A stretch of 23,197 nucleotides of DNA from a virus. Positions 672 through 23,195 of this stretch are shown here, one piece after another. The stretch's first letter is position 1, and every line of letters begins with the position of its first letter. The position numbers and the translations under genes were made by a program. Where the stretch lies: IMG/VR virus record IMGVR_UViG_3300042466_000902, positions 1-23,197 of that record; one strand, given 5' to 3'. Below the pieces are notes generated by a model that saw nothing but the letters and a program-made list of their open reading frames with translations, was not told the origin of the DNA and searched no databases.

Positions 672-3392
672 ATGCCAGCCGTCTCGCAGAAGATCGACAA
701 CCTGATCGGAGGAGTCTCCCAGCAGCCCGACTCCCTAAAGCTCGAGGGTACATTTGTCACCTGTGATGATTTCCTACCGGACCCCTTATTCGGGTTGTCC
801 AAGCGTCCTGGAATAAAGCACATCTCCCAACTGAATGGAGCCCTCAGCACCTCCTCCAGCTGGGGCTTTATTGATCGTGATGATGAGGAGAAGTACCTGG
901 TCCAGATTGGACGCACCGCTGGAGCCTCCATGCTCAAAGTGTGGGATGCCCAGAGTGGTGAATCCCAGATCGTCAATGCGATAGGATCGGGGGCACAGGG
1001 CTACCTGGCGCACACCGACGATGCAGAGCTGGAACTGCTCACTGTTGGTGACTACACTCTCCTTTTGAATAAAAAAGTAAACGTCGCGCAGGGTAGCCTG
1101 GCCAGTCCTACAGATACTCCCTACGCAATCGTCAGCATCAATGCTGTAGCATATAGCAGCCGCTATGAGTTCACTCTGCAGCCGTCGACACTCTACACCT
1201 ATACTACCGGGCACTCATCTGGTAGTACGATCCTAAGCATTCGAGATGTCACCGAAGGTTTAGCATCGGTAATCAATGCGGGGGGCATCCTCACAGCCAC
1301 AGTAATCGGACCTTACTTGTATGTTAGGAGGAATGACGGAGGTCCATTTGACGCCTCTACCCAGGGCGGACAGGGCGGCTCGGCCATCTCCATCGCCAAG
1401 GGTAAGGTATCCAGTCCGGCTGAGCTTCCTAGGCAGTTCATCAATAATTCCCGCATCCAGATTCTCAGCAATGAAGGATCTGATGGGGACGACTACTGGG
1501 TGACCTTCAAGACTGATAGTGGCGCAACCTCTGGTGTAGGTGTATGGGAAGAGACCATCGGTCCTGCTGTAAACAACGGCTTCAATACGGACACCCTGCC
1601 TCATGCTCTCATCCGCGAGGCTAATGGCACCTTCACCGTTCGTCGCCTTGGCCTTGCAGAGGCCCTGGCTACCCTGCCCAGCGTGTCGACCGCAGGCGCC
1701 GTCACGTCAGCCGCGGTCTTGAGCTCCACCCGAGGGCGATACCTGGTCGGTCAGACCTTCTGGGCCCGCGGCAGCGTGGGTACCAATCTACGCCTCCGGG
1801 TGGCCTCTACAGATGCCTCAGGCAATATCGTGACAGTCGAGCCGAGCCGTGCCGGCTATGGGTTTGCTGTCTCCAATGTCGTCTCCAATGAGTTTGGTGA
1901 TACCTTCACCATCACGTCAGTGGCTACAGTCACCACTGTGGCGGATCCTTTTGCCAAGCTCTATTGGGTGGACAGGCAGGCAGGGGACATCAAGTCCAAC
2001 AGCTGGCCCAGCTTCAAGGATAACCCCATTGACGGGATCTCTTTCTTCAAGAACAGGCTGGTTCTTTCTAGCCAAGACAACATCATAACCAGTGTGGCTG
2101 GCAACTACTTCAATTTCTTCCAGACCACAGTTGCCACCGTTCTGGCATCCGATCCAGTGGATATTTCCGCAGGCTCAACACGGCCACTGAGATTCCGTCG
2201 CATGCTCCCCTACCAGCGGGGCCTTCTCTGCTTTTCCGACAATGGGCAATACAGCCTAGAGACCAACACCGAAGCCTTCAGCACAGCCACTGCTGAGATG
2301 GTTCAAGTGGGTTCCTACGACCTGCTGTCTAATCTGGCTCCGATTGACATAGGACCGAGCATTGTCTTTGCAAGCAAGAGTGCCAGGGCCACTTCTGTCT
2401 TCGAGGCTCAATTCACGGCTGAAGGCCAGAGCCGCACCAGGGTTGCCGAACTCACCAGGGTGATACCTAGGTATCTGCCTCCTGACATTCAGGACATGAA
2501 GGCATCAACCACGGCCTCCATGGTCACACTCAGAAGCAAGCAGGCTGAAGGTCAGCTATTCTGCTTCAAATTTTACGACGTGGGTGGGGAAAGAAAGCAG
2601 GCTGCATGGTTTCGTTGGAGGGTCCCTGGATTGATTGAGCATCAATCCTTCTCTGGCAATGTTCTCACTGTGGTGCTTCGGTCCAAAACCAACCCTGCAA
2701 CCCTGAGCCTAGCCAATATCACGATTGACAATAACAACTCCAATAGCCCCCTCTTCTTCCAAGGAGAGCAGGTGGATGTTCGCCTAGACCTTCACAGTTA
2801 CAATCCATCCATCTTCTACAACGTCACCAACGACACCACGGAGGTAGGGATCTCCGACCATCTGGCCGATTACCAGGGCCAGACTTGGGAGTGTGTCACT
2901 ACCAGCGCAGCCCAGCCAGGAGTAACCTACACCGGCACCCTGATCAACACACCCTCCAACCCAGTGGGACGGAAGTGGCACCTGAGCGTTCCTGGAGACC
3001 TTAGTACTAACACCTTCTCCATTGGTACGAGGATTCAGGCTGAGGCCACGCTGCCAGCCTTTTTCATCAAAGGACGAGATGAGAAGCGGGACACCCGCAA
3101 CATCCCCGTCATCCATAGACTGACTTTCTCTAGTTTCAACTCTGGATCGTTTCAGGTCGAGGTCAAGAACCTGGGACGAGAGACCTTTGTCTCTACACTT
3201 GAGCAAAAAGTGGCTGGAAGCTACGTTCCTGGCACCATTCCCATTGTAAGGAATCGCACCAATACCGTGCCAGTCTTTGCCAAGGGGGATGCCACGGAAA
3301 TCAAGATCCAGGCTCCCTTCCTATTCCCTGTGACAATCGACAGCATCCTATGGGAGGGGACGTTTGACACCTTTGGTCATCAGCGACTATGA
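672..3392 (+). CDS. Tail tubular protein B (T7 gp12-like nozzle)
   Basis: A 906-residue protein of the T7 gp12 family, which forms the hexameric nozzle of the podovirus tail. The N-terminus holds the family signature, with N-L-I-G-G-V-S-Q-Q-P-D near residues 10-20 and L-S-K-R-P-G near 42-47. The rest looks beta-rich, as expected for the propeller-like nozzle. It is about 110 residues longer than T7 gp12 (794 aa), so there are probably insertions in surface loops. Its ATG lies two bases after the stop of tail tube A, and its stop overlaps the next gene's start as ATGA at 3389-3392, which suggests translational coupling. Confidence 0.92.
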   Translation: MPAVSQKIDNLIGGVSQQPDSLKLEGTFVTCDDFLPDPLFGLSKRPGIKHISQLNGALSTSSSWGFIDRDDEEKYLVQIGRTAGASMLKVWDAQSGESQIVNAIGSGAQGYLAHTDDAELELLTVGDYTLLLNKKVNVAQGSLASPTDTPYAIVSINAVAYSSRYEFTLQPSTLYTYTTGHSSGSTILSIRDVTEGLASVINAGGILTATVIGPYLYVRRNDGGPFDASTQGGQGGSAISIAKGKVSSPAELPRQFINNSRIQILSNEGSDGDDYWVTFKTDSGATSGVGVWEETIGPAVNNGFNTDTLPHALIREANGTFTVRRLGLAEALATLPSVSTAGAVTSAAVLSSTRGRYLVGQTFWARGSVGTNLRLRVASTDASGNIVTVEPSRAGYGFAVSNVVSNEFGDTFTITSVATVTTVADPFAKLYWVDRQAGDIKSNSWPSFKDNPIDGISFFKNRLVLSSQDNIITSVAGNYFNFFQTTVATVLASDPVDISAGSTRPLRFRRMLPYQRGLLCFSDNGQYSLETNTEAFSTATAEMVQVGSYDLLSNLAPIDIGPSIVFASKSARATSVFEAQFTAEGQSRTRVAELTRVIPRYLPPDIQDMKASTTASMVTLRSKQAEGQLFCFKFYDVGGERKQAAWFRWRVPGLIEHQSFSGNVLTVVLRSKTNPATLSLANITIDNNNSNSPLFFQGEQVDVRLDLHSYNPSIFYNVTNDTTEVGISDHLADYQGQTWECVTTSAAQPGVTYTGTLINTPSNPVGRKWHLSVPGDLSTNTFSIGTRIQAEATLPAFFIKGRDEKRDTRNIPVIHRLTFSSFNSGSFQVEVKNLGRETFVSTLEQKVAGSYVPGTIPIVRNRTNTVPVFAKGDATEIKIQAPFLFPVTIDSILWEGTFDTFGHQRL

Positions 3393-15893: not shown

Positions 15894-16199
15894 ATGCCAA
15901 GTTTGACTCCGGATCACCTTCTCCAGAGCCTCCAAGCCATGACTAGCTCCGAAGCAAAACGCATGTGGCGTGAGTCCATCAAGGCTCACTATAATCACCG
16001 CTGCGTCTATTGTGGCTCCACTGAATCTCTCACGCTCGATCACGTCAAAGCCAAGGTTAAGGGAGGCCGTGACGAGGCCTCTAACCTTGTGGCCGCCTGC
16101 TTAGCGTGTAATCGAAGTAAGGGCTCTAGGGATGTTCTTGATTGGTTCAGAAACCAGCCTTTCTTCTCTTTGTCCACTCTCCAAAGTTTACCCTCATGA
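15894..16199 (+). CDS. HNH endonuclease
   Basis: A 101-residue HNH nuclease. Zinc-binding pairs are C37-x-x-C40 (C-V-Y-C-G) and C69-x-x-C72 (C-L-A-C-N). The catalytic D49-H50 lies in L-T-L-D-H-V, then come G-G-R-D-E-A-S-N64-L-V and N73-R-S-K-G. All key residues are present, so it is likely active. HNH proteins near terminase genes assist packaging in some phages; others are free-standing homing endonucleases. The insertion of this and neighbouring genes between the spanin and large terminase genes fits either idea. ATG at 15894 lies seven bases after the previous stop, and the frame upstream of it is antiparallel in character to the known gene there, so longer starts are rejected. Confidence 0.85.
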   Translation: MPSLTPDHLLQSLQAMTSSEAKRMWRESIKAHYNHRCVYCGSTESLTLDHVKAKVKGGRDEASNLVAACLACNRSKGSRDVLDWFRNQPFFSLSTLQSLPS

Positions 16200-16537
16200 C
16201 TGCTGTTGTTCTTACTCCCCAGGTGTCACTGCGACAGCCTGTTGAGAGTTTCTCCTATCCCTCTTTAGCACGCCGAGTTACCGCTACAACAACTTCGCAG
16301 AATGTTGCATTGACAAGCGGAATACGGGCAATAGTCATACACGTTCGTGACGCTGCCTGCCGTGTGGCTATTGGTTCTGGTCCTCAAACGGCAAATGCTA
16401 CCAGTAGCGTTTTTCTTCCTCAAGGCTCGACCACAACCTTTCAGACCCCCCTCAATGGAGCAGCAAACCTTGCAGTAATTCGTGATACTGCTGCGGTGGT
16501 CAATAGTGTTCTTGAGATTACAGAACTGCGCTCTTAA
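16196..16537 (+). CDS. Small beta-rich structural-type protein, unknown
   Basis: A 113-residue protein starting by ATGA overlap with the HNH gene. It is rich in Thr/Ser/Ala/Val and alternates short strands. The pattern is I-R-A-I-V-I-H-V-R-D, then V-A-I-G-S-G-P-Q-T-A-N-A-T-S-S-V-F-L-P, then F-Q-T-P-L-N-G-A-A-N-L-A-V-I-R-D and a closing V-L-E-I-T-E-L. This 'T-A-x-x-x-S-x-x-L-P-x-G ... G-x-x-x-A-V-I' style is common in small virion (decoration or fibre-associated) proteins of tailed phages. No enzymatic motif is visible. The structural role is inference from composition and from the next gene. Confidence 0.6.
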   Translation: MTAVVLTPQVSLRQPVESFSYPSLARRVTATTTSQNVALTSGIRAIVIHVRDAACRVAIGSGPQTANATSSVFLPQGSTTTFQTPLNGAANLAVIRDTAAVVNSVLEITELRS

Positions 16538-16579
16538 TAGCAAGCCTTAGTTTTTTCTGCTTTTTTTTTTGAGAATCCC
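16538..16579 (+). other. T-rich spacer with T6 and T10 runs
   Basis: The gap holds six T (16551-16556), CTGC and ten T (16561-16570), ending nine bases before the next ATG. Only a weak AGCA/TGCT stem with a 15-nt loop precedes the T10 run, so a standard terminator is not well supported. The tract could act as a U-rich leader for ribosomal protein S1-type binding, or as a weak terminator. Confidence 0.4.
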
Positions 16580-17170
16580 ATGTCTACTGTTCCCGCTGGC
16601 GGCTCTGCCTACGGTGCCTTCCCTTCCACCACTGTGGCGGGAGCCTCTCGCACGACCGTCCAGGATCCCTTTTCCAACCAGGTAACCTCGGGCCTTGACT
16701 TTCGCAAAACCCGCCTGGCCAAACATCGCCTGAATCGCACCATCCAGGCCACAGCCACCACAGCAGTGGTCAACGCAACCGTGGCCGTGGCCACCGATGC
16801 CATTAACACCGTCCGCCAGGCAGATCGGGTGCCCGCAACCTTGGTCAATGGCAAGCGCACCGGCCGCATCCGCCGTGTCTCCTCCACCTCCGTCGGCACC
16901 ATTGGGACCCTCGTTGGGGGCACCGGCTACACCAACGGGTCGTACACCAACGTACCCCTGGTCCGCACCACGGGTTCCGGATCCCAGCTGCTGGCCTCTG
17001 GGGCTGCGGCCGACATTACTGTGGCTGGTGGCATCGTGACCGCTTGCACCCTGGTGTCCGCTCGCACAGGCGAGGGCTACACCGTGGGCGATGTACTCAC
17101 CGCTGCCGGCGGCTACATCGGCGCTGGCACAGGCTTTACCATCAACGTGGCAACTGTAGCTGTAGGTTAA
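16580..17170 (+). CDS. Virion-type protein with Gly-rich beta C-terminus
   Basis: A 196-residue protein. The N-terminal half has Ala/Thr/Val-rich and basic segments. The C-terminal half (about 100-196) has G-G-T-G-Y-T-N-G-S-Y-T-N-V-P-L, then A-D-I-T-V-A-G-G-I-V-T-A, G-E-G-Y-T-V-G-D-V-L-T-A and G-T-G-F-T-I-N-V-A-T-V. This is a known type of repeat-like beta module in phage and cyanophage structural proteins, in which 'GxGYxxG', 'V-T-x-A' and 'GxxVGDxLT' recur. The protein is likely exposed on the virion (fibre or capsid decoration). Function is otherwise unknown. It is followed three bases later by a basic protein gene. Confidence 0.62.
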   Translation: MSTVPAGGSAYGAFPSTTVAGASRTTVQDPFSNQVTSGLDFRKTRLAKHRLNRTIQATATTAVVNATVAVATDAINTVRQADRVPATLVNGKRTGRIRRVSSTSVGTIGTLVGGTGYTNGSYTNVPLVRTTGSGSQLLASGAAADITVAGGIVTACTLVSARTGEGYTVGDVLTAAGGYIGAGTGFTINVATVAVG

Positions 17171-17173
17171 CTC

Positions 17174-17752
17174 ATGGCACCAGCAAAGAAAAAGCCCACC
17201 TCCTCAGGCGATCGCTCTAAACGGGCGGCCCAGTCCAAGGCCGTGGTCTCCGGCAAGACCCCGTCCAGTCGAGCCAACCGGCAGGCCATGTCGACCGCCA
17301 AGGTGACTTCAGGCATCAAAGGCAAGGCCGCCGGATCGGGCACAGCCCGGGTGACATCAAGCTCTGTGCGAGACGCCAAGCAGCAGGGCAAAGCCAATGT
17401 TACAGCCGCACAGACCCGACGTGTCGCCAAGGCAACCAGTGCCACCATGACGAGCAAACTTGCCAAAACACGAGCACTGCGGAGTGCTTCAAGCATGGGC
17501 CGTGCTGGAGTCCTGGGTGCGGTCGCCGCCGAGACCCTCAAGGCCAGGCCCACCGCAGACGGCACCCTCACCGGGGCCATGAAGCGAGGGGACTACAAAC
17601 CCAAGCAAGGCCCTGCTGTGCCGGCTCGAATGACGCAGGGCGGCATGGACAAGGGCTCCTTCAACAGCGCCTTCAAGGCCTCTCGCGCCGCCGGAAAGAA
17701 GACCTTCTCCTGGCGAGGCAAGAAGTACAACACCAAGAAAGCCGGAGAATAA
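17174..17752 (+). CDS. Basic Ala/Lys-rich virion-type protein
   Basis: A 192-residue protein very rich in Lys, Arg, Ala, Ser and Thr (histone H1-like composition over residues 1-130), with no aromatic residue until Tyr141. The C-terminal 30 residues (G-S-F-N-S-A-F-K-A-S-R-A-A-G, then K-T-F-S-W-R-G-K-K-Y-N-T-K) form a distinct module. I recognise this 'F-x-x-A-F-x-x-A-R-x-x-G-x-x-T-F-x-W-x-G-x-x-Y-x-T-K' pattern as a recurring C-terminal tag of podovirus proteins. It may anchor the protein in the particle. The role is unproven; DNA or capsid-interior binding is plausible. A terminator follows 27 nt after the stop. Confidence 0.6.
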   Translation: MAPAKKKPTSSGDRSKRAAQSKAVVSGKTPSSRANRQAMSTAKVTSGIKGKAAGSGTARVTSSSVRDAKQQGKANVTAAQTRRVAKATSATMTSKLAKTRALRSASSMGRAGVLGAVAAETLKARPTADGTLTGAMKRGDYKPKQGPAVPARMTQGGMDKGSFNSAFKASRAAGKKTFSWRGKKYNTKKAGE

Positions 17753-17778
17753 ATTCCAGGTTGCAGTTCGCATTATGG

Positions 17779-17798
17779 GGGCCTTCGGGCCCTTTTTT
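17779..17798 (+). terminator. Strong intrinsic terminator just upstream of the large terminase gene
   Basis: GGGCC (17779-17783), a TTCG tetraloop, GGCCC (17788-17792) and six T (17793-17798) form a textbook rho-independent terminator. The T run ends seven bases before the terminase ATG at 17806. It would end the late structural transcript here unless read through. Confidence 0.85.
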
Positions 17799-17805
17799 CA
17801 TTCAC

Positions 17806-19614
17806 ATGGCTCTATCCCAAGAACAGCTTCAGACCAAGCTACTCACGGATTTCGCGTTTTTCCTGAGGATTCTCTGGAAGCATCTTCGCCTGCCTGAGCC
17901 CACCCGGGCGCAGCTGGCTATGGCCCGATACCTTCAGTATGGAGGCCCAAGGATCCAGCTCCAGATGTTTCGAGGGGTCGGCAAATCCTGGGTTACAGCC
18001 GCCTTTGTTATCTGGACCCTTTACTGCAACCAGAACAAGAAGGTCCTCGTGGTCTCCGCCTCCAAACAGAGGGCTGACGACTTCTCGCTGTTCGTCCAGC
18101 GGTGCATCATGGACTTTCCATTCCTGCAGCACCTGGATAACTCTGGCAAGGACAATCGGTGGAGCCGAGTTGCATTCGATGTGAAAGGAGCCGAGCCTGC
18201 CCAGAGCCCCTCGGTGAAGAGCGTGGGCATTACCTCCGCCATGGTGGGCTCTCGGGCCGACCTGATCGTCCCCGACGATATCGAGAGTCCTGAGAATAGT
18301 GCCTCCGACATCCAGAGGGAAAAGCTCCTCCAGCGAACCACGGAGTTCGAGTCCATCCTGACTCCACTTCCCACCTCTCGAATCATCTACCTGGGGACCC
18401 CACAGACCATCTTCTCGGTATATAACAAGCTAGAGCTCCGAGGCTATAAGGCCATGGTCTGGCCCGCCCGCTATCCATCTGAGGAAAACCTCCCCAACTA
18501 TGATGGGCGGCTAGCTGAGGAGCTCGAAGAGGACATTCGCAGTTCGGGAATAGCGAATCTGGCCGGGCAGCCCACAGATACCCGCTTCTCGGACGCCCTC
18601 TTGCGTGAGAAGGAGTTCACCCAGACGGCTGCGGTGTTCCAGCTGCAGTTCCAGCTCGACACATCAATGTCGGACATGCTGCGGTACCCCCTGCGGCTGG
18701 GCGACATCCCGGTGGTGTCCCTCGATCCCAGGAAGTGTCCTGGCACGGTGATCTGGTCCCAGGACCCTGCCAACCGCATCAGCGACTTGGAGGCCATCTC
18801 GCTGCCCGGGGACCACTGGTTCCGGCCGGCGCGCCTCGGTGACGACTGGCTGGACTGGCCGGCCGACACCATCGTGGCGGTCGACCCATCTGGCCGCGGC
18901 AAGGACGAGACGGGCGTGGTGGTGCTGAGCCAGCTGGCCGGCAACATCTACCTGCGGGCCCTGCGGGGATTCCGAGAGGGCTACTCCGATGCCACCTTGA
19001 CGGCCATCCTGAAGCTGGGCCTGCAGTATGGGGCCACCATGTGCCTCGTGGAGTCCAACTTCGGCGATGGGACCGTTGTGGCCCTCCTCCAGAAGCACGC
19101 ACGGGAGATGCAGATACCCATGACCTTCGAGGAGACCCGGGCCTTCGTCCGCAAGGAGGAGCGCATCCTGGATGCCCTCGAGCCGGTCACCACCCAGCAT
19201 CGGCTGATTGTCGATCGGGGTGTCGTGGAATACGACCTGTCCTCGAACCAGGACCTGCCCCTCGAGGAGAGGCTCCAGAAGACCCTGGCCTACCAGCTCA
19301 CCCGGCTCAGTCGAGACAAGGGGGCCCTGAAGCATGACGACCGGGTCGATGCCTTGGCCATGGGCGTGGCCTACTTCACCGATCGGCTCAACGTGAGCCA
19401 GTTCGAGGAGTCCAAGAAGCTCTCCCAGGAGGCCTACGCGACCATGCTGAAGCAGATGGAGGAGGATCCAACACGGTTCGTGGATGACCTGGTGCTGGGG
19501 GATGTCAGGCAGAGGCTGCAGAGGGCCGCGGAGAGGTTGGACCATGCTCGAAATCGACCCAGGCATGGAGGCAACGTGTCTGCCCAGGTCAGGAAGGCCA
19601 TGGGAGGGGCCTAG
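17806..19614 (+). CDS. terL: Terminase large subunit (T7 gp19-like)
   Basis: A 602-residue packaging motor and nuclease (T7 gp19 is 586 aa). The N-terminal ATPase has a Walker A-like R56-G-V-G-K-S61 and a Walker B L-I-V-P-D-D-I-E (153-160). The C-terminal RNase H-like nuclease carries Asp360 (V-A-V-D-P-S-G-R-G), Glu416 (L-V-E-S-N-F-G-D-G) and Asp511/Asp515 (H-D-D-R-V-D-A-L). All catalytic residues are therefore present. ATG at 17806 begins M-A-L-S-Q-E-Q; a TTG 45 nt upstream would run through the terminator stem and is rejected. There is no Shine-Dalgarno, only the T-rich end of the terminator. Its last codons already belong to the 10-nt repeat array that follows. Confidence 0.93.
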   Translation: MALSQEQLQTKLLTDFAFFLRILWKHLRLPEPTRAQLAMARYLQYGGPRIQLQMFRGVGKSWVTAAFVIWTLYCNQNKKVLVVSASKQRADDFSLFVQRCIMDFPFLQHLDNSGKDNRWSRVAFDVKGAEPAQSPSVKSVGITSAMVGSRADLIVPDDIESPENSASDIQREKLLQRTTEFESILTPLPTSRIIYLGTPQTIFSVYNKLELRGYKAMVWPARYPSEENLPNYDGRLAEELEEDIRSSGIANLAGQPTDTRFSDALLREKEFTQTAAVFQLQFQLDTSMSDMLRYPLRLGDIPVVSLDPRKCPGTVIWSQDPANRISDLEAISLPGDHWFRPARLGDDWLDWPADTIVAVDPSGRGKDETGVVVLSQLAGNIYLRALRGFREGYSDATLTAILKLGLQYGATMCLVESNFGDGTVVALLQKHAREMQIPMTFEETRAFVRKEERILDALEPVTTQHRLIVDRGVVEYDLSSNQDLPLEERLQKTLAYQLTRLSRDKGALKHDDRVDALAMGVAYFTDRLNVSQFEESKKLSQEAYATMLKQMEEDPTRFVDDLVLGDVRQRLQRAAERLDHARNRPRHGGNVSAQVRKAMGGA

Positions 19615-20031: not shown

Positions 20032-20089
20032 AGAGGACCCAGCAGAACATGCTCAGAATCCCTTTGTGTGCCAGTGGCACTCCTGTCCT

Positions 20090-20482
20090 ATGACCCAGAT
20101 CAACCGCCAACTGACAGTGTGGCAAGGTCCAAATGATGTCCAACTCCACCTGACCGACCCCTATGGCCACGTCAACGGTGTGGTCTCCCTGAGCCTCGAG
20201 GAGTGTCGGCAGCTGGGAGAGGCCCTGGCAGTCGTGCAGCCGATCGTGGTGATCGATGTGGAAGCCGTGGTGGTCGAAGAGCCTGAGCCAGAGCCGGTGG
20301 TGGAAACTGAGGTGGAAACTGAGGTGGAAACCCAAGCCGTGGATACCGACTGGGCAGCCATGACCAGGGCTGAGATCCTGGAGGAGGTCAAGGACCGCTT
20401 CGAGGTGCTTCTCGATGGCACCCTCAAGAAGGATGCCCTGATCGCCAAGGCCGTGCAGCTGGAGGCCGAGCATGACGCCTGA
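20090..20482 (+). CDS. Unknown protein with acidic linker and SAP/HeH-like C-terminal helices
   Basis: A 130-residue protein. Residues 1-52 form a compact N-terminal part (L-T-V-W-Q-G-P-N-D-V-Q-L-H-L, then V-S-L-S-L-E-E-C-R-Q-L-G-E-A-L). About 53-90 is an acidic Val/Glu/Pro linker that includes V-E-T-E three times; its 12-nt unit GTGGAAACTGAG is repeated at 20300-20335. Residues 92-126 (T-R-A-E-I-L-E-E-V, then L-L-D-G-T-L-K-K-D-A-L-I-A-K) resemble the two-helix HeH/SAP-type modules found in phage proteins, some of which bind nucleic acid. I do not recognise the whole protein. The ATG at 20090 is preferred over one 24 nt upstream, because the compact domain begins here. Confidence 0.65.
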   Translation: MTQINRQLTVWQGPNDVQLHLTDPYGHVNGVVSLSLEECRQLGEALAVVQPIVVIDVEAVVVEEPEPEPVVETEVETEVETQAVDTDWAAMTRAEILEEVKDRFEVLLDGTLKKDALIAKAVQLEAEHDA

Positions 20483-20597
20483 GCAGGCCCGGAAGGTCGC
20501 CGCGGCCGCGCCAGCAGGGTCGGTCTATGCCGAGATGGCCCGGAAGGTGCTCAAGGAGGCCGCAGGGTCTACCTCTCAACCTCCCAGGAAATTTTAA
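20472..20597 (+). CDS. Possible 41-residue protein overlapping the previous gene
   Basis: An ATG at 20472 inside the end of the previous gene (11-nt overlap) opens a 41-codon frame. It starts M-T-P-E-Q-A-R-K-V-A-A-A-A-P, continues V-Y-A-E-M-A-R-K-V-L-K-E-A-A-G, and ends at TAA 20595-20597. It predicts a short amphipathic helix with a basic tail. Codon use is like the neighbour. Overlap style matches other gene pairs in the window, but the size makes chance possible. No family recognised. Confidence 0.4.
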   Translation: MTPEQARKVAAAAPAGSVYAEMARKVLKEAAGSTSQPPRKF

Positions 20598-20608
20598 CAG
20601 AAAATTCC
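20587..20608 (+). repeat. AT-rich inverted repeat
   Basis: GGAAATTTT and AAAATTCC are inverted copies (one bulged A) around the spacer AACAG. The element overlaps the stop codon of the 41-codon frame. It lacks a GC stem and T tract, so it may be a protein-binding site rather than a terminator. Confidence 0.45.
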
Positions 20609-20690
20609 GTGTGGGGTACGCCTGTTGGCGGTGGCCCCAATCCCCCCCCATGGCCCCCCTTCGATCCTGGCCTCGGCCGCCCGTCCCCCA

Positions 20691-20721
20691 TGGTTGGCCC
20701 GTTTTGGCCCGTTTTGGCCCG
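20691..20721 (+). repeat. Three 10-nt tandem repeats
   Basis: TGGTTGGCCC, GTTTTGGCCC and GTTTTGGCCC follow each other without gap; the last two are identical. This is the second 10-nt-periodic array in the region. The two arrays bracket about 1 kb, like the left and right short-repeat arrays around the T7 terminal repeat, though that comparison is inference. Confidence 0.7.
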
Positions 20722-20762
20722 CTTCCTCGGTCTCTGTTCGTTGCGCCGCAATGGTTCTCAGT

Positions 20763-20797
20763 CCTTGCGTACCTGTCACACACACAGGTACGCGGGG
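20763..20797 (+). repeat. Long inverted repeat
   Basis: GCGTACCTGT (20767-20776) and ACAGGTACGC (20784-20793) are perfect 10-bp inverted copies around CACACAC. Two T-G and two C-G pairs extend the stem to 14 pairs. There is no T tract. It lies just upstream of the first control module, so it could be an operator, an origin-type hairpin or an RNA structure. Confidence 0.7.
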
Positions 20798-20810
20798 CCG
20801 GTCGGCCTGT

Positions 20811-20889
20811 CTCATAAGTTGAGCTGATCGTCAAATTCTCCATCTATAATTTGGGCTTATACCACGGTTGTCCGGTGTGGATTGTGTGG
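20811..20889 (+). promoter_or_regulatory. Control module A (first copy)
   Basis: It contains CTCATAAGTTGAGCTGATC (20811-20829), a degenerate second copy TCTATAATTTGGGCTTATA starting 32 nt later (20843-20861), GGTTGTCC (20866-20873) and ATTGTGTGG (20881-20889). TATAAT at 20845-20850 is a good -10-like hexamer; the best upstream partner, TTGAGC (20819-20824), is 20 nt away. Module B has the same four elements in the same order. Confidence 0.55.
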
Positions 20890-20914
20890 TTCTGTGTTTG
20901 ATGGATCAGTACGA

Positions 20915-21006
20915 CTCATAAGCTGAGCTTATCACAAGCCCCAGGCCCATAAGCAGCGCTAATCGGTTGACCCATTGCCCCGGCGCCATCCTGCTGTATT
21001 GTGTGG
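20915..21006 (+). promoter_or_regulatory. Control module B (second copy)
   Basis: It contains CTCATAAGCTGAGCTTATC (20915-20933), CCCATAAGCAGCGCTAATC 31 nt later (20946-20964), GGTTGACC (20965-20972) and ATTGTGTGG (20998-21006). The core ATAAGC-TGA-GCTTAT is a perfect inverted repeat. The first elements of modules A and B are 104 nt apart, about ten helical turns. The module ends 43 nt before the start of a winged-helix-like gene, so an operator array for that gene is likely. Confidence 0.6.
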
Positions 21007-21049
21007 AGCGTAAACCGCCACAACATCGGTGCCCATCCCCTCCCATCCC

Positions 21050-21391
21050 ATGAACACCTCATCACAAGCATCACAGGCCATACAAATCCAAATCCTTCAC
21101 ATCCTCTCAGGTGGCCGAGAGCTGCGTCAATTCGAGATCGCAGCCGAACTACAGGTGCCAGAACATCACAACTGGGCAACCCACACAGTCTTAGAATCTA
21201 TGATCAAGGCAGAGCTGATCTCCTTTGAGTGGTATCACAATATCCTCAAAGATGGCACCTTGTCTAAAATACCCTACCGCTTCTATCGTCTTACTACTTT
21301 CGGGGAGGATAAGCTGATTAGCACCAAGCCCACACTGCGGGCCCTATGGGTTGGCTATATTGACAGGATTAAATCGATCCTAGGTGTCTAA
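21050..21391 (+). CDS. Winged-helix (PadR-like) DNA-binding protein, probable regulator
   Basis: A 113-residue protein with the plan of a PadR/MarR-type winged helix. Helix 1 is I-Q-I-L-H-I-L-S-G-G (13-22), a helix-turn-helix region F-E-I-A-A-E-L-Q-V-P follows (28-37), and the recognition-helix region is T-H-T-V-L-E-S-M-I-K-A-E-L-I (45-58). The wing is marked by Y-R-F-Y-R-L-T-T-F-G-E-D-K-L (76-89). This is family-level resemblance, not a strong match. It lies directly downstream of the duplicated palindromic module, which suggests autoregulation. ATG at 21050 is preferred over one 21 nt upstream because the ATGAAC start box shared with other cassette genes begins there. Base composition is less GC-rich than the late genes. 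Confidence 0.6.
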   Translation: MNTSSQASQAIQIQILHILSGGRELRQFEIAAELQVPEHHNWATHTVLESMIKAELISFEWYHNILKDGTLSKIPYRFYRLTTFGEDKLISTKPTLRALWVGYIDRIKSILGV

Positions 21392-22190: not shown

Positions 22191-22354
22191 TGAACCCCAT
22201 CACAAGCCAAAAGTCGGAACAGCTACTACAAGCCATAGCCGACGCATTATGGGGCGATGGCGCAGACACACCATGGAATCCCGACACCATTCAAGCCATC
22301 GCAGACGCTATTCAAACAGAACGCCCTGATCTCCTCTCAAACAGAATCCAATGA
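22190..22354 (+). CDS. 54-residue protein of unknown function
   Basis: Starts on the last base of the previous stop (TAATG) and ends in an ATGA overlap with the next gene, so it fills the gap exactly. The protein is acidic and helical: E-Q-L-L-Q-A-I-A-D-A-L-W-G-D-G (10-24), then W-N-P-D-T-I-Q-A-I-A-D-A-I (29-41). The two A-I-A-D-A helices look like an internal duplication. The W-x-P-D-T-x-x-x-I-A style recurs in small phage proteins I have seen, with no function known to me. Exact tiling on both sides makes this a real gene despite its length. Confidence 0.65.
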   Translation: MNPITSQKSEQLLQAIADALWGDGADTPWNPDTIQAIADAIQTERPDLLSNRIQ

Positions 22355-22983
22355 AACCACCACTCCCTAGCCGAATCACAAGCATTCTTGGCACCTTCTA
22401 CCTCTCCACTGAGACCGAACGCATCGTCGGCCGTCAGTGGTATTCACAAGCTCACACAGCCGCCCTTGACCTATCCCTCACCTATCCGATAAGCGTCATC
22501 ACAGCCGCAGGAGTCATCGCAGCGCTCAGTCCCAACAACAGGTGGCACCGGAATCTATTAGACGCTGATTCCCTAATCGATTGCTTTATTGAACGCGGAC
22601 CCCACGCAGCCTCTCAGCTGAAGGTATGTACCTATGGGAATAACATACAAAAGGCTCTGACAATCCTTAAGTGCAGTCATCCAACTATAGAAGATATAGC
22701 CATCATCTTAAACGGCCGTAAGATCTCTGCCTTCTACCGTTGCATTCTCGGGTCTCAGACGGCTGTATGTGTTGATGGGCATGCTTATTCAATATGGGCA
22801 GGGCAGACTATCACCACTAGTAATACCCCTAACATCGGCCCGCGGCTCTATGCTCAGATTGTTTTAGACTACACTAAAGCCGCTACTATGATAGACTCAA
22901 AGGCTCCATCCCACGAAATTATTAGCCCTGTTCAATTACAAGCAATTACATGGTTAGCCCATAAACGCATCATTGGCCGGTGA
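22351..22983 (+). CDS. HhH-GPD-like (DNA glycosylase-fold) phage protein
   Basis: A 210-residue protein. A-G-V-I-A-A-L-S-P-N-N-R-W-H-R-N (53-68) is followed by a helical middle and then the key part. N-G-R-K124-I-S-A-F-Y is followed, exactly 18 residues after the Lys, by Asp142 in C-V-D142-G-H-A-Y-S-I. E. coli endonuclease III has G-V-G-R-K120 and V-D138-T-H with the same spacing, the catalytic Lys/Asp pair of bifunctional HhH-GPD glycosylases. The iron-sulfur cluster cysteines are absent. I recall phage proteins of this 'SPN...N-R...G-K...FY...D-x-H' type being annotated only as unknown-function domains. Enzyme activity is inference. Starts by ATGA overlap and ends by GTGA overlap with the next frame. 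Confidence 0.65.
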   Translation: MKPPLPSRITSILGTFYLSTETERIVGRQWYSQAHTAALDLSLTYPISVITAAGVIAALSPNNRWHRNLLDADSLIDCFIERGPHAASQLKVCTYGNNIQKALTILKCSHPTIEDIAIILNGRKISAFYRCILGSQTAVCVDGHAYSIWAGQTITTSNTPNIGPRLYAQIVLDYTKAATMIDSKAPSHEIISPVQLQAITWLAHKRIIGR

Positions 22984-23156
22984 CACGTTACCTGCTGATG
23001 GACCTAAGCAACCTAGACAGGGAGCTTTTAACATGGCGTGATCGTATCTGGGCCCAACGCCTCATCAACCAGAGCAACCGACAAGGCAGGCCATCAGGTC
23101 TCAGTCCTCCAACATCACCGATTAGCCCTACTGATCACCCCAGCCCTGCCCCATAG
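22980..23156 (+). CDS. 58-residue protein of unknown function (GTG start)
   Basis: A frame beginning with GTG at 22980 overlaps the previous stop as GTGA. It reads L-L-M-D-L-S-N-L-D-R-E-L-L-T-W-R-D-R-I-W-A-Q-R-L early and ends in a Pro/Ser-rich tail before TAG at 23154-23156. An in-frame ATG at 22998 would give 52 residues. The helical, charged N-terminal half looks protein-like, and the overlap style is that of the other cassette genes. No family is recognised. Confidence 0.5.
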   Translation: MTRYLLMDLSNLDRELLTWRDRIWAQRLINQSNRQGRPSGLSPPTSPISPTDHPSPAP

Positions 23157-23174
23157 GTAGGGCTTATCTATGGG
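23150..23174 (+). repeat. Inverted repeat and further copy of the control element
   Basis: CCCATAG (23150-23156) and CTATGGG (23168-23174) are perfect inverted copies with an 11-nt spacer. The first 19 bases, CCCATAGGTAGGGCTTATC, match the element at 20946 in 15 of 19 positions and that at 20915 in 14 of 19. It overlaps the stop of the last gene. Confidence 0.55.
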
Positions 23175-23175
23175 A

Positions 23176-23195
23176 GGGGGGGGGGGGGGGGGGGG
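23176..23195. other. Homopolymer run of 20 G at the window end
   Basis: GGGA (23172-23175) is followed by 20 G and then AA at the window edge. Such a run is unusual in phage DNA. It may be a contig-end artefact of two-colour sequencing chemistry, where loss of signal is read as G, or a true low-complexity tract able to form quadruplexes. Confidence 0.9.

Follow-up and report, generated by a model that had tools for sequence, protein, structure and literature searches.

The window analyzed here, 23,197 nucleotides of viral DNA, is a fragment of the genome of a T7-like cyanophage, that is, a T7-like virus of cyanobacteria. It contains late genes for the virion, the gene of a T7-type large terminase (17761-19614), an ORF behind the terminase (20066-20482), a non-coding stretch of 567 bp and an early cassette that comprises, in this order, a winged-helix gene (21050-21391), P2 (21432-22190), a 54-aa ORF and DUF7178 (22351-22983), with the winged-helix gene, P2 and DUF7178 on the plus strand. 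P2 is conserved in the clade. Relatives, which were retrieved with the terminase and with P2 as queries, have an operon with the phage RNA polymerase as the next block after the early cassette. Because of this order, the non-coding stretch between the ORF and the first early gene (20483-21049, plus strand), which holds blocks conserved in relatives, represents the first early control region. The same region includes an inverted repeat, GCGTACCTG / CAGGTACGC, at 20767-20793, of which altered versions are kept in the corresponding control region of L004, L007, G008 and G009.

The control region carries a set of boxes that are 6-3-6 dyads (palindromes of 15 bases) with the consensus ATMAGS-N3-SCTKAT, none of which is assigned a strand. 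Box A1 (20813-20829, CATAAGTTGAGCTGATC) contains the dyad ATAAGT-TGA-GCTGAT and scores 16.7 bits, box B1 (20917-20933, CATAAGCTGAGCTTATC) is the perfect dyad ATAAGC-TGA-GCTTAT and scores 22.9 bits, and box B2 (20948-20964, CATAAGCAGCGCTAATC) contains ATAAGC-AGC-GCTAAT and scores 19.2 bits. The original prediction had described them as 19-bp boxes with the core CATAAG..GAGCT.ATC, which we recovered without mismatches at 20813 and 20917 and with one mismatch at 20948; its perfect dyad in the best box, the TATAAT in the first module (20845-20850) and its spacings (about 32 between A1 and A2, 31 bp between B1 and B2, 104 between A1 and B1) are likewise present. The second box proposed 31-32 nt after each first one is strong in the case of B2, whereas A2 (20845-20861), which overlaps the TATAAT, is weak at 8.2 bits, although an identical copy is kept in L006. 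A further pair, overlooked in that prediction, is formed by C1 (23120-23136, GATTAGCCCTACTGATC, 13.4 bits) and C2 (23152-23168, CATAGGTAGGGCTTATC, 10.8 bits), 32 bp apart and ahead of what in relatives is the RNA-polymerase operon.

These boxes exceed chance expectation by several measures. The window contains eight matches to the core with up to three mismatches, where 1.87 would be expected, a count not attained in any of 100 shuffles. With a weight matrix trained on 78 boxes, all from other phages, the sites at 20917, 20948 and 20813 are the top three of the 23-kb window, while other top matches (5097 and 12841) fall within coding ORFs; similarly, none of 2000 dinucleotide shuffles of the intergenic region yielded two sites scoring at least 12. 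A degree of circularity applies to these ranks, given that the first array loci described below were picked with a window-derived pattern. B1 matches that pattern exactly. However, A1, B2, C1 and C2 deviate from it, which makes the high ranks that they receive from a matrix trained elsewhere largely independent of the selection. Promoters of a T7-like phage RNA polymerase were rejected as an identity for the boxes, which are absent from the late genes, with good ones at 20813-20964 and 23120-23168 only. Dyad half-sites at a fixed spacing, more frequent than chance and paired in helical phase, are as would be found in operators of a dimeric protein.

Conservation among relatives is uneven. A perfect dyad is retained in L042, which has three good boxes, and in L006, where it occupies the place of A1. 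B2 has a counterpart in L002 (GATAAGCAGCGCTGATC), and the C pair has one in L024 (GATCAGCCCCCCTGATC and CATAAGCAGGGCTTTTC) at the same 32-bp spacing. A good box has been lost from L004 and L007, both close relatives; the best score in L004 is 9.4.

The boxes had been proposed as parts of a duplicated module of four elements, and all four can indeed be found twice, with GGTTGWCC at 20866 and 20965 and ATTGTGTGG at 20881 and 20998; the third and fourth, however, take no part in a duplication, and the likeness between the two modules is lost in relatives. Alignments with L002, L004, L006, L007 and L008 reveal that in module A both belong to a single conserved element that extends from CCACGG to GATTGTGTGG (CCACGGTTGTCCGGTGTGGATTGTGTGG, 20862-20889, plus strand, containing GGTTGTCC and ATTGTGTGG), the inner letters of which vary, GGTTGWCC being replaced by GGTTGGCC, GGTAAGTC, GGTTCGGC or GGCAAGTC. 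In module B, the third element, GGTTGACC, is part of GGTYGACCCNTTGCC within a conserved block adjoining B2 (GGTTGACCCATTGCC, 20965-20979, plus strand) that reads GGTCGACCCGTTGCC in L002 and GGTTGACCCCTTGCC in L004 and L007, and the fourth reads TATAGTCATTGG in L002 and TAAGATATGAAG in L004 and overlaps a putative -10 hexamer. Since these elements belong to different conserved blocks and vary in relatives, the likeness of the modules beyond the dyads is peculiar to the window. L004 (6830-6900) and L007 (6805-6875) each have two copies of the CCACGG...GGATTGYGTGG element.

The putative -10 belongs to TTGCCC-N16-TATTGT, located behind B2 (20975-21002, plus strand) and aligned with TTGCCA-N16-TATAGT in L002 and TTGCCA-N16-TAAGAT in L004. 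A host-type promoter kept in three lineages is a plausible reading of this alignment; a consensus promoter scan did not report the site in the window. The TATAAT at A2 could likewise be the -10 of a promoter whose -35 region would be covered by A1.

Similar dyads occur widely in other viral DNA. A first scan with CATAAGCNGAGCTTATC led to unrelated contigs with whole dyad arrays. A consensus drawn up from these loci together with the window was then used to scan for pairs of dyads at a distance of exactly 31 bp, which occurred in 39 stretches of viral DNA forming 20 clusters. Lengthening the distance to 36 bp, and so shifting the second dyad by half a helical turn, gave no matches; the half-sites are identical in both scans, and the comparison is free of the selection bias. 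Spacings within the arrays are almost exclusively 18, 31, 49, 67, 80 and 98, which corresponds to an 18/31-bp lattice. At the two pairs of mirror positions that show variation, the partners change independently (45 paired compared with 43.2 expected, and 48 compared with 46.2), and this independent variation of the half-sites fits protein half-sites and not hairpins. The possibility that the boxes act as stem-loops in RNA or single-stranded DNA, for which each dyad offers a 6-bp stem and a 3-nt loop, is thus largely refuted: pairing is not maintained, no Rfam match was obtained, and the strict helical spacing is a feature of the DNA level.

The contigs that carry arrays differ in kind. In L073, an array of seven dyads is located upstream of a weak relative of P2 followed by a homologue of DUF7178, which is the window's own cassette. 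Another array contig encodes a portal protein with 66% identity to its counterpart in the isolated Synechococcus siphovirus S-CBS4, which itself has no array; one (G018) encodes an integrase, and many carry DUF7227, a gene also present in early regions of T7-like cyanophages. Iterated repeats of 21-23 bp (CCGGCTAG..GTAT) are placed directly ahead of the dyad arrays in L033 (7010-7100), L035 (reverse strand, about 100-190), L040 (7090-7180) and L073 (1585-1690). In G007, the ribonucleotide reductase and adjoining ORF (16141-18637) share about 60% identity with their counterparts in contigs that bear arrays and are partly S-CBS4-like, a likeness that suggests shared hosts. BLAST searches of phage and plasmid records returned no array homologues, only weak matches of LexA/Fur-like stretches, including one in S-CRES3, and a scan for the paired motif in a genome collection, which did not extend to cyanobacterial chromosomes, returned three isolated sites in unrelated bacteria (Shewanella, Vibrio and Paenibacillus). 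The box sequence was not found in a search of the literature, and we know of no host transcription factor with an ATMAGS-N3-SCTKAT motif.

The arrays are accompanied by sites of two further types. Cyanobacterial LexA boxes have been described as RGTACNNNDGTWCB and AGTACWNWTGTACT (PMC3091678), and a cyanobacterial Zur box as NTNANAATGATNATCATTNTNAN (PMC9337993). LexA-type boxes were identified within about 300 bp of arrays in 12 of the 20 clusters; 16 of them fall in the 10.5 kb near arrays, whereas the more distant parts of these loci (134.5 kb) have none, and several are one letter off published picocyanobacterial recA/lexA sites such as CGTACGTTTGTACT and CGTACGCCTGTACT (PMC3091678). Fur-type sites are present near arrays as well, with 8 in the 10.5 kb near arrays and 14 in the 134.5 kb elsewhere.

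Two members of the window's clade carry such sites. In G008, a Fur/Zur-like site is present at 504 in one early control region and at 2969 in the other (of 45,280 positions), and the site at 2969 contains the AATGATAATCAT core of the published Zur box (PMC9337993). The first early control region of G009 holds a site of the LexA type; a single LexA or Fur match per 45 kb is not significant alone, whereas clusters are. The isolated T7-like cyanophage S-CBP42 carries tandem LexA-type sites directly upstream of its RNA polymerase gene. Neither a cyanobacterial LexA box (RGTACNNNDGTWCB) nor a Fur/Zur box (GATAAT-type 7-1-7 or 19-bp) occurs in the window, the boxes of which differ from both. In the isolated Synechococcus phage S-CRES3 (OQ587941), tandem LexA-type and two Fur-like boxes are located at 30210-30325, between convergent genes and not at a promoter, and lack an ATMAGS dyad; a further three boxes of the LexA type are spaced about 50 bp from one another at 33029-33140. 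Our literature search found no cyanophage papers naming LexA and Fur sites together.

Our findings suggest, with a probability of roughly one half, that the boxes of the window are operators for a dimeric DNA-binding regulator of the picocyanobacterial host, placed at early control regions. That they are control boxes for a dimeric protein, as the original prediction held, is well supported by the significance of the dyads, their fixed helical spacing in unrelated phages and their independently varying half-sites. The regulator is most likely a host transcription factor, a choice favored because different operator-like sites take corresponding places in related phages and co-occur in others. 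Pairs three helical turns apart would seat two dimers on the same face of the DNA, and the boxes are found at the two early control regions that the host RNA polymerase would read first, namely 20813-20964 for the early cassette and 23120-23168 for the RNA-polymerase operon. A host regulator at these positions could allow the state of the host to modulate early phage transcription; the binding of a protein, an effect on transcription and the sign of that effect are all presumptive. Precedent exists in cyanomyoviruses, where host PhoB has been shown to bind Pho boxes of S-PM2 and P-SSM2 (PMC10976474). The two systems are alike in that cyanophage promoters have sites for a host transcription factor, but the Pho boxes are direct repeats of PyTTAAPyPy, a different site in a different phage group, and serve nutrient genes (PMC10976474), while binding to the boxes of the window is predicted from sequence.

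More tentatively, the arrays and boxes may represent a composite element of control that is widespread among phages of picocyanobacteria. In such an element, the hitherto undescribed ATMAGS-N3-SCTKAT dyad, as the site of a host factor, would form phased lattices interspersed with LexA- and Fur-type sites, and the combination would tie the first transcription of both lytic and temperate phages to the DNA-damage and metal state of the host, or titrate those regulators. If so, early transcription would be wired to host regulators in many cyanophages, including T7-like ones, which are usually assumed to use unregulated host-polymerase promoters, and DNA damage, metals or a third signal would influence the outcome of infection. 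The ATMAGS dyad would then offer a handle for finding the third regulator.

Among the alternatives, the one that retains most support, though we consider it unlikely, is that the sites act as a decoy or sponge, titrating host regulators as phage DNA multiplies and exerting no control over neighboring promoters. Arrays that occupy long non-coding stretches and combine up to seven to nine dyads with Fur-like and tandem LexA sites would suit this role, as would the position of the S-CRES3 cluster between convergent genes. However, the good sites in the window's clade number only one to three and adjoin promoter-like sequences in two early control regions, and arrays precede early genes in L073 and in the loci bearing DUF7227.

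Less probable still is that the boxes are sites of a phage initiator or of a partition or packaging protein, marking a replication origin or terminal region and not serving a transcription regulator. Such a role is compatible with the content of the long non-coding stretches, where a regular dyad lattice is joined by other iterated repeats, as well as with the location of the window's region after the terminase, near where T7-like genomes end. It does not account for the co-location of the dyads with LexA and Fur-like transcription-factor sites or for the second pair, set apart from the first and before the polymerase operon, and a search for a shared initiator gene found none.

Temperate phages of the lambda/P22 type have multi-operator arrays, consisting of 17-bp dyads at fixed spacing near early promoters, and the resemblance raises a slim chance that another phage-encoded repressor, for instance of the HTH_3/Cro type, binds the dyads. 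The contig of L040 (G004) does encode an HTH_3 protein, and the integrase of G018 points in the same direction. The present system differs from those arrays in that its T7-like members are without a cognate repressor gene that we could find and in that LexA and Fur-like sites are mixed in. A search for HTH_3 genes was negative for G007, G008 and G009 and for the rest of the T7-like contigs covered, some of which are incomplete, and no regulator gene common to the box-bearing phages was found among the available sequences.

The binder originally proposed was the product of the adjacent gene (21050-21391), which would autoregulate its cassette. A winged-helix fold is indicated for this protein by a low-depth AlphaFold model (pLDDT 78.5), with PadR and MarR regulators as the best Foldseek matches (E 7.7e-5 for PadR), families that are often autoregulating. 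Nonetheless, we rejected this candidate as very improbable, since gene and boxes are not inherited together: L004 has a homologue 70% identical and no good box, L007 keeps the region, with a nearly identical upstream sequence, and has no winged-helix gene, and no homologue was detected in L042 or in any array-bearing locus examined.

Other sequence features of the early region were recorded. A 9-mer, TCACAAGCC, occurs in 9-12 plus-strand copies per genome in G007, G008 and G009 (31 of 32 copies are on the plus strand), nearly all in the early region and often immediately flanking start codons, in more than one reading frame; it is missing from S-CBP2, P60 and S-SRP01. Copies of this type in the window lie at 20932, 21062, 21402, 21418, 21760, 22200, 22376 and 22444, and most read TCACAA(A/G)C; the 9-mer is probably an RNA-level signal. 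At the RNA-polymerase operon, two copies of CGACTGGGGC..GGACAA, about 45 bp apart, precede a conserved promoter-like TAAGAGGTCC (L024, 1740-1820; L027, 3040-3120). The window ends in a poly-G run (23178-23195), which represents a feature of the genome, because runs of 10-11 G are located at about the same place in relatives, behind the C boxes (L024, about 1706-1716; L027, about 3010-3020), and which is probably the reason the contig breaks there.
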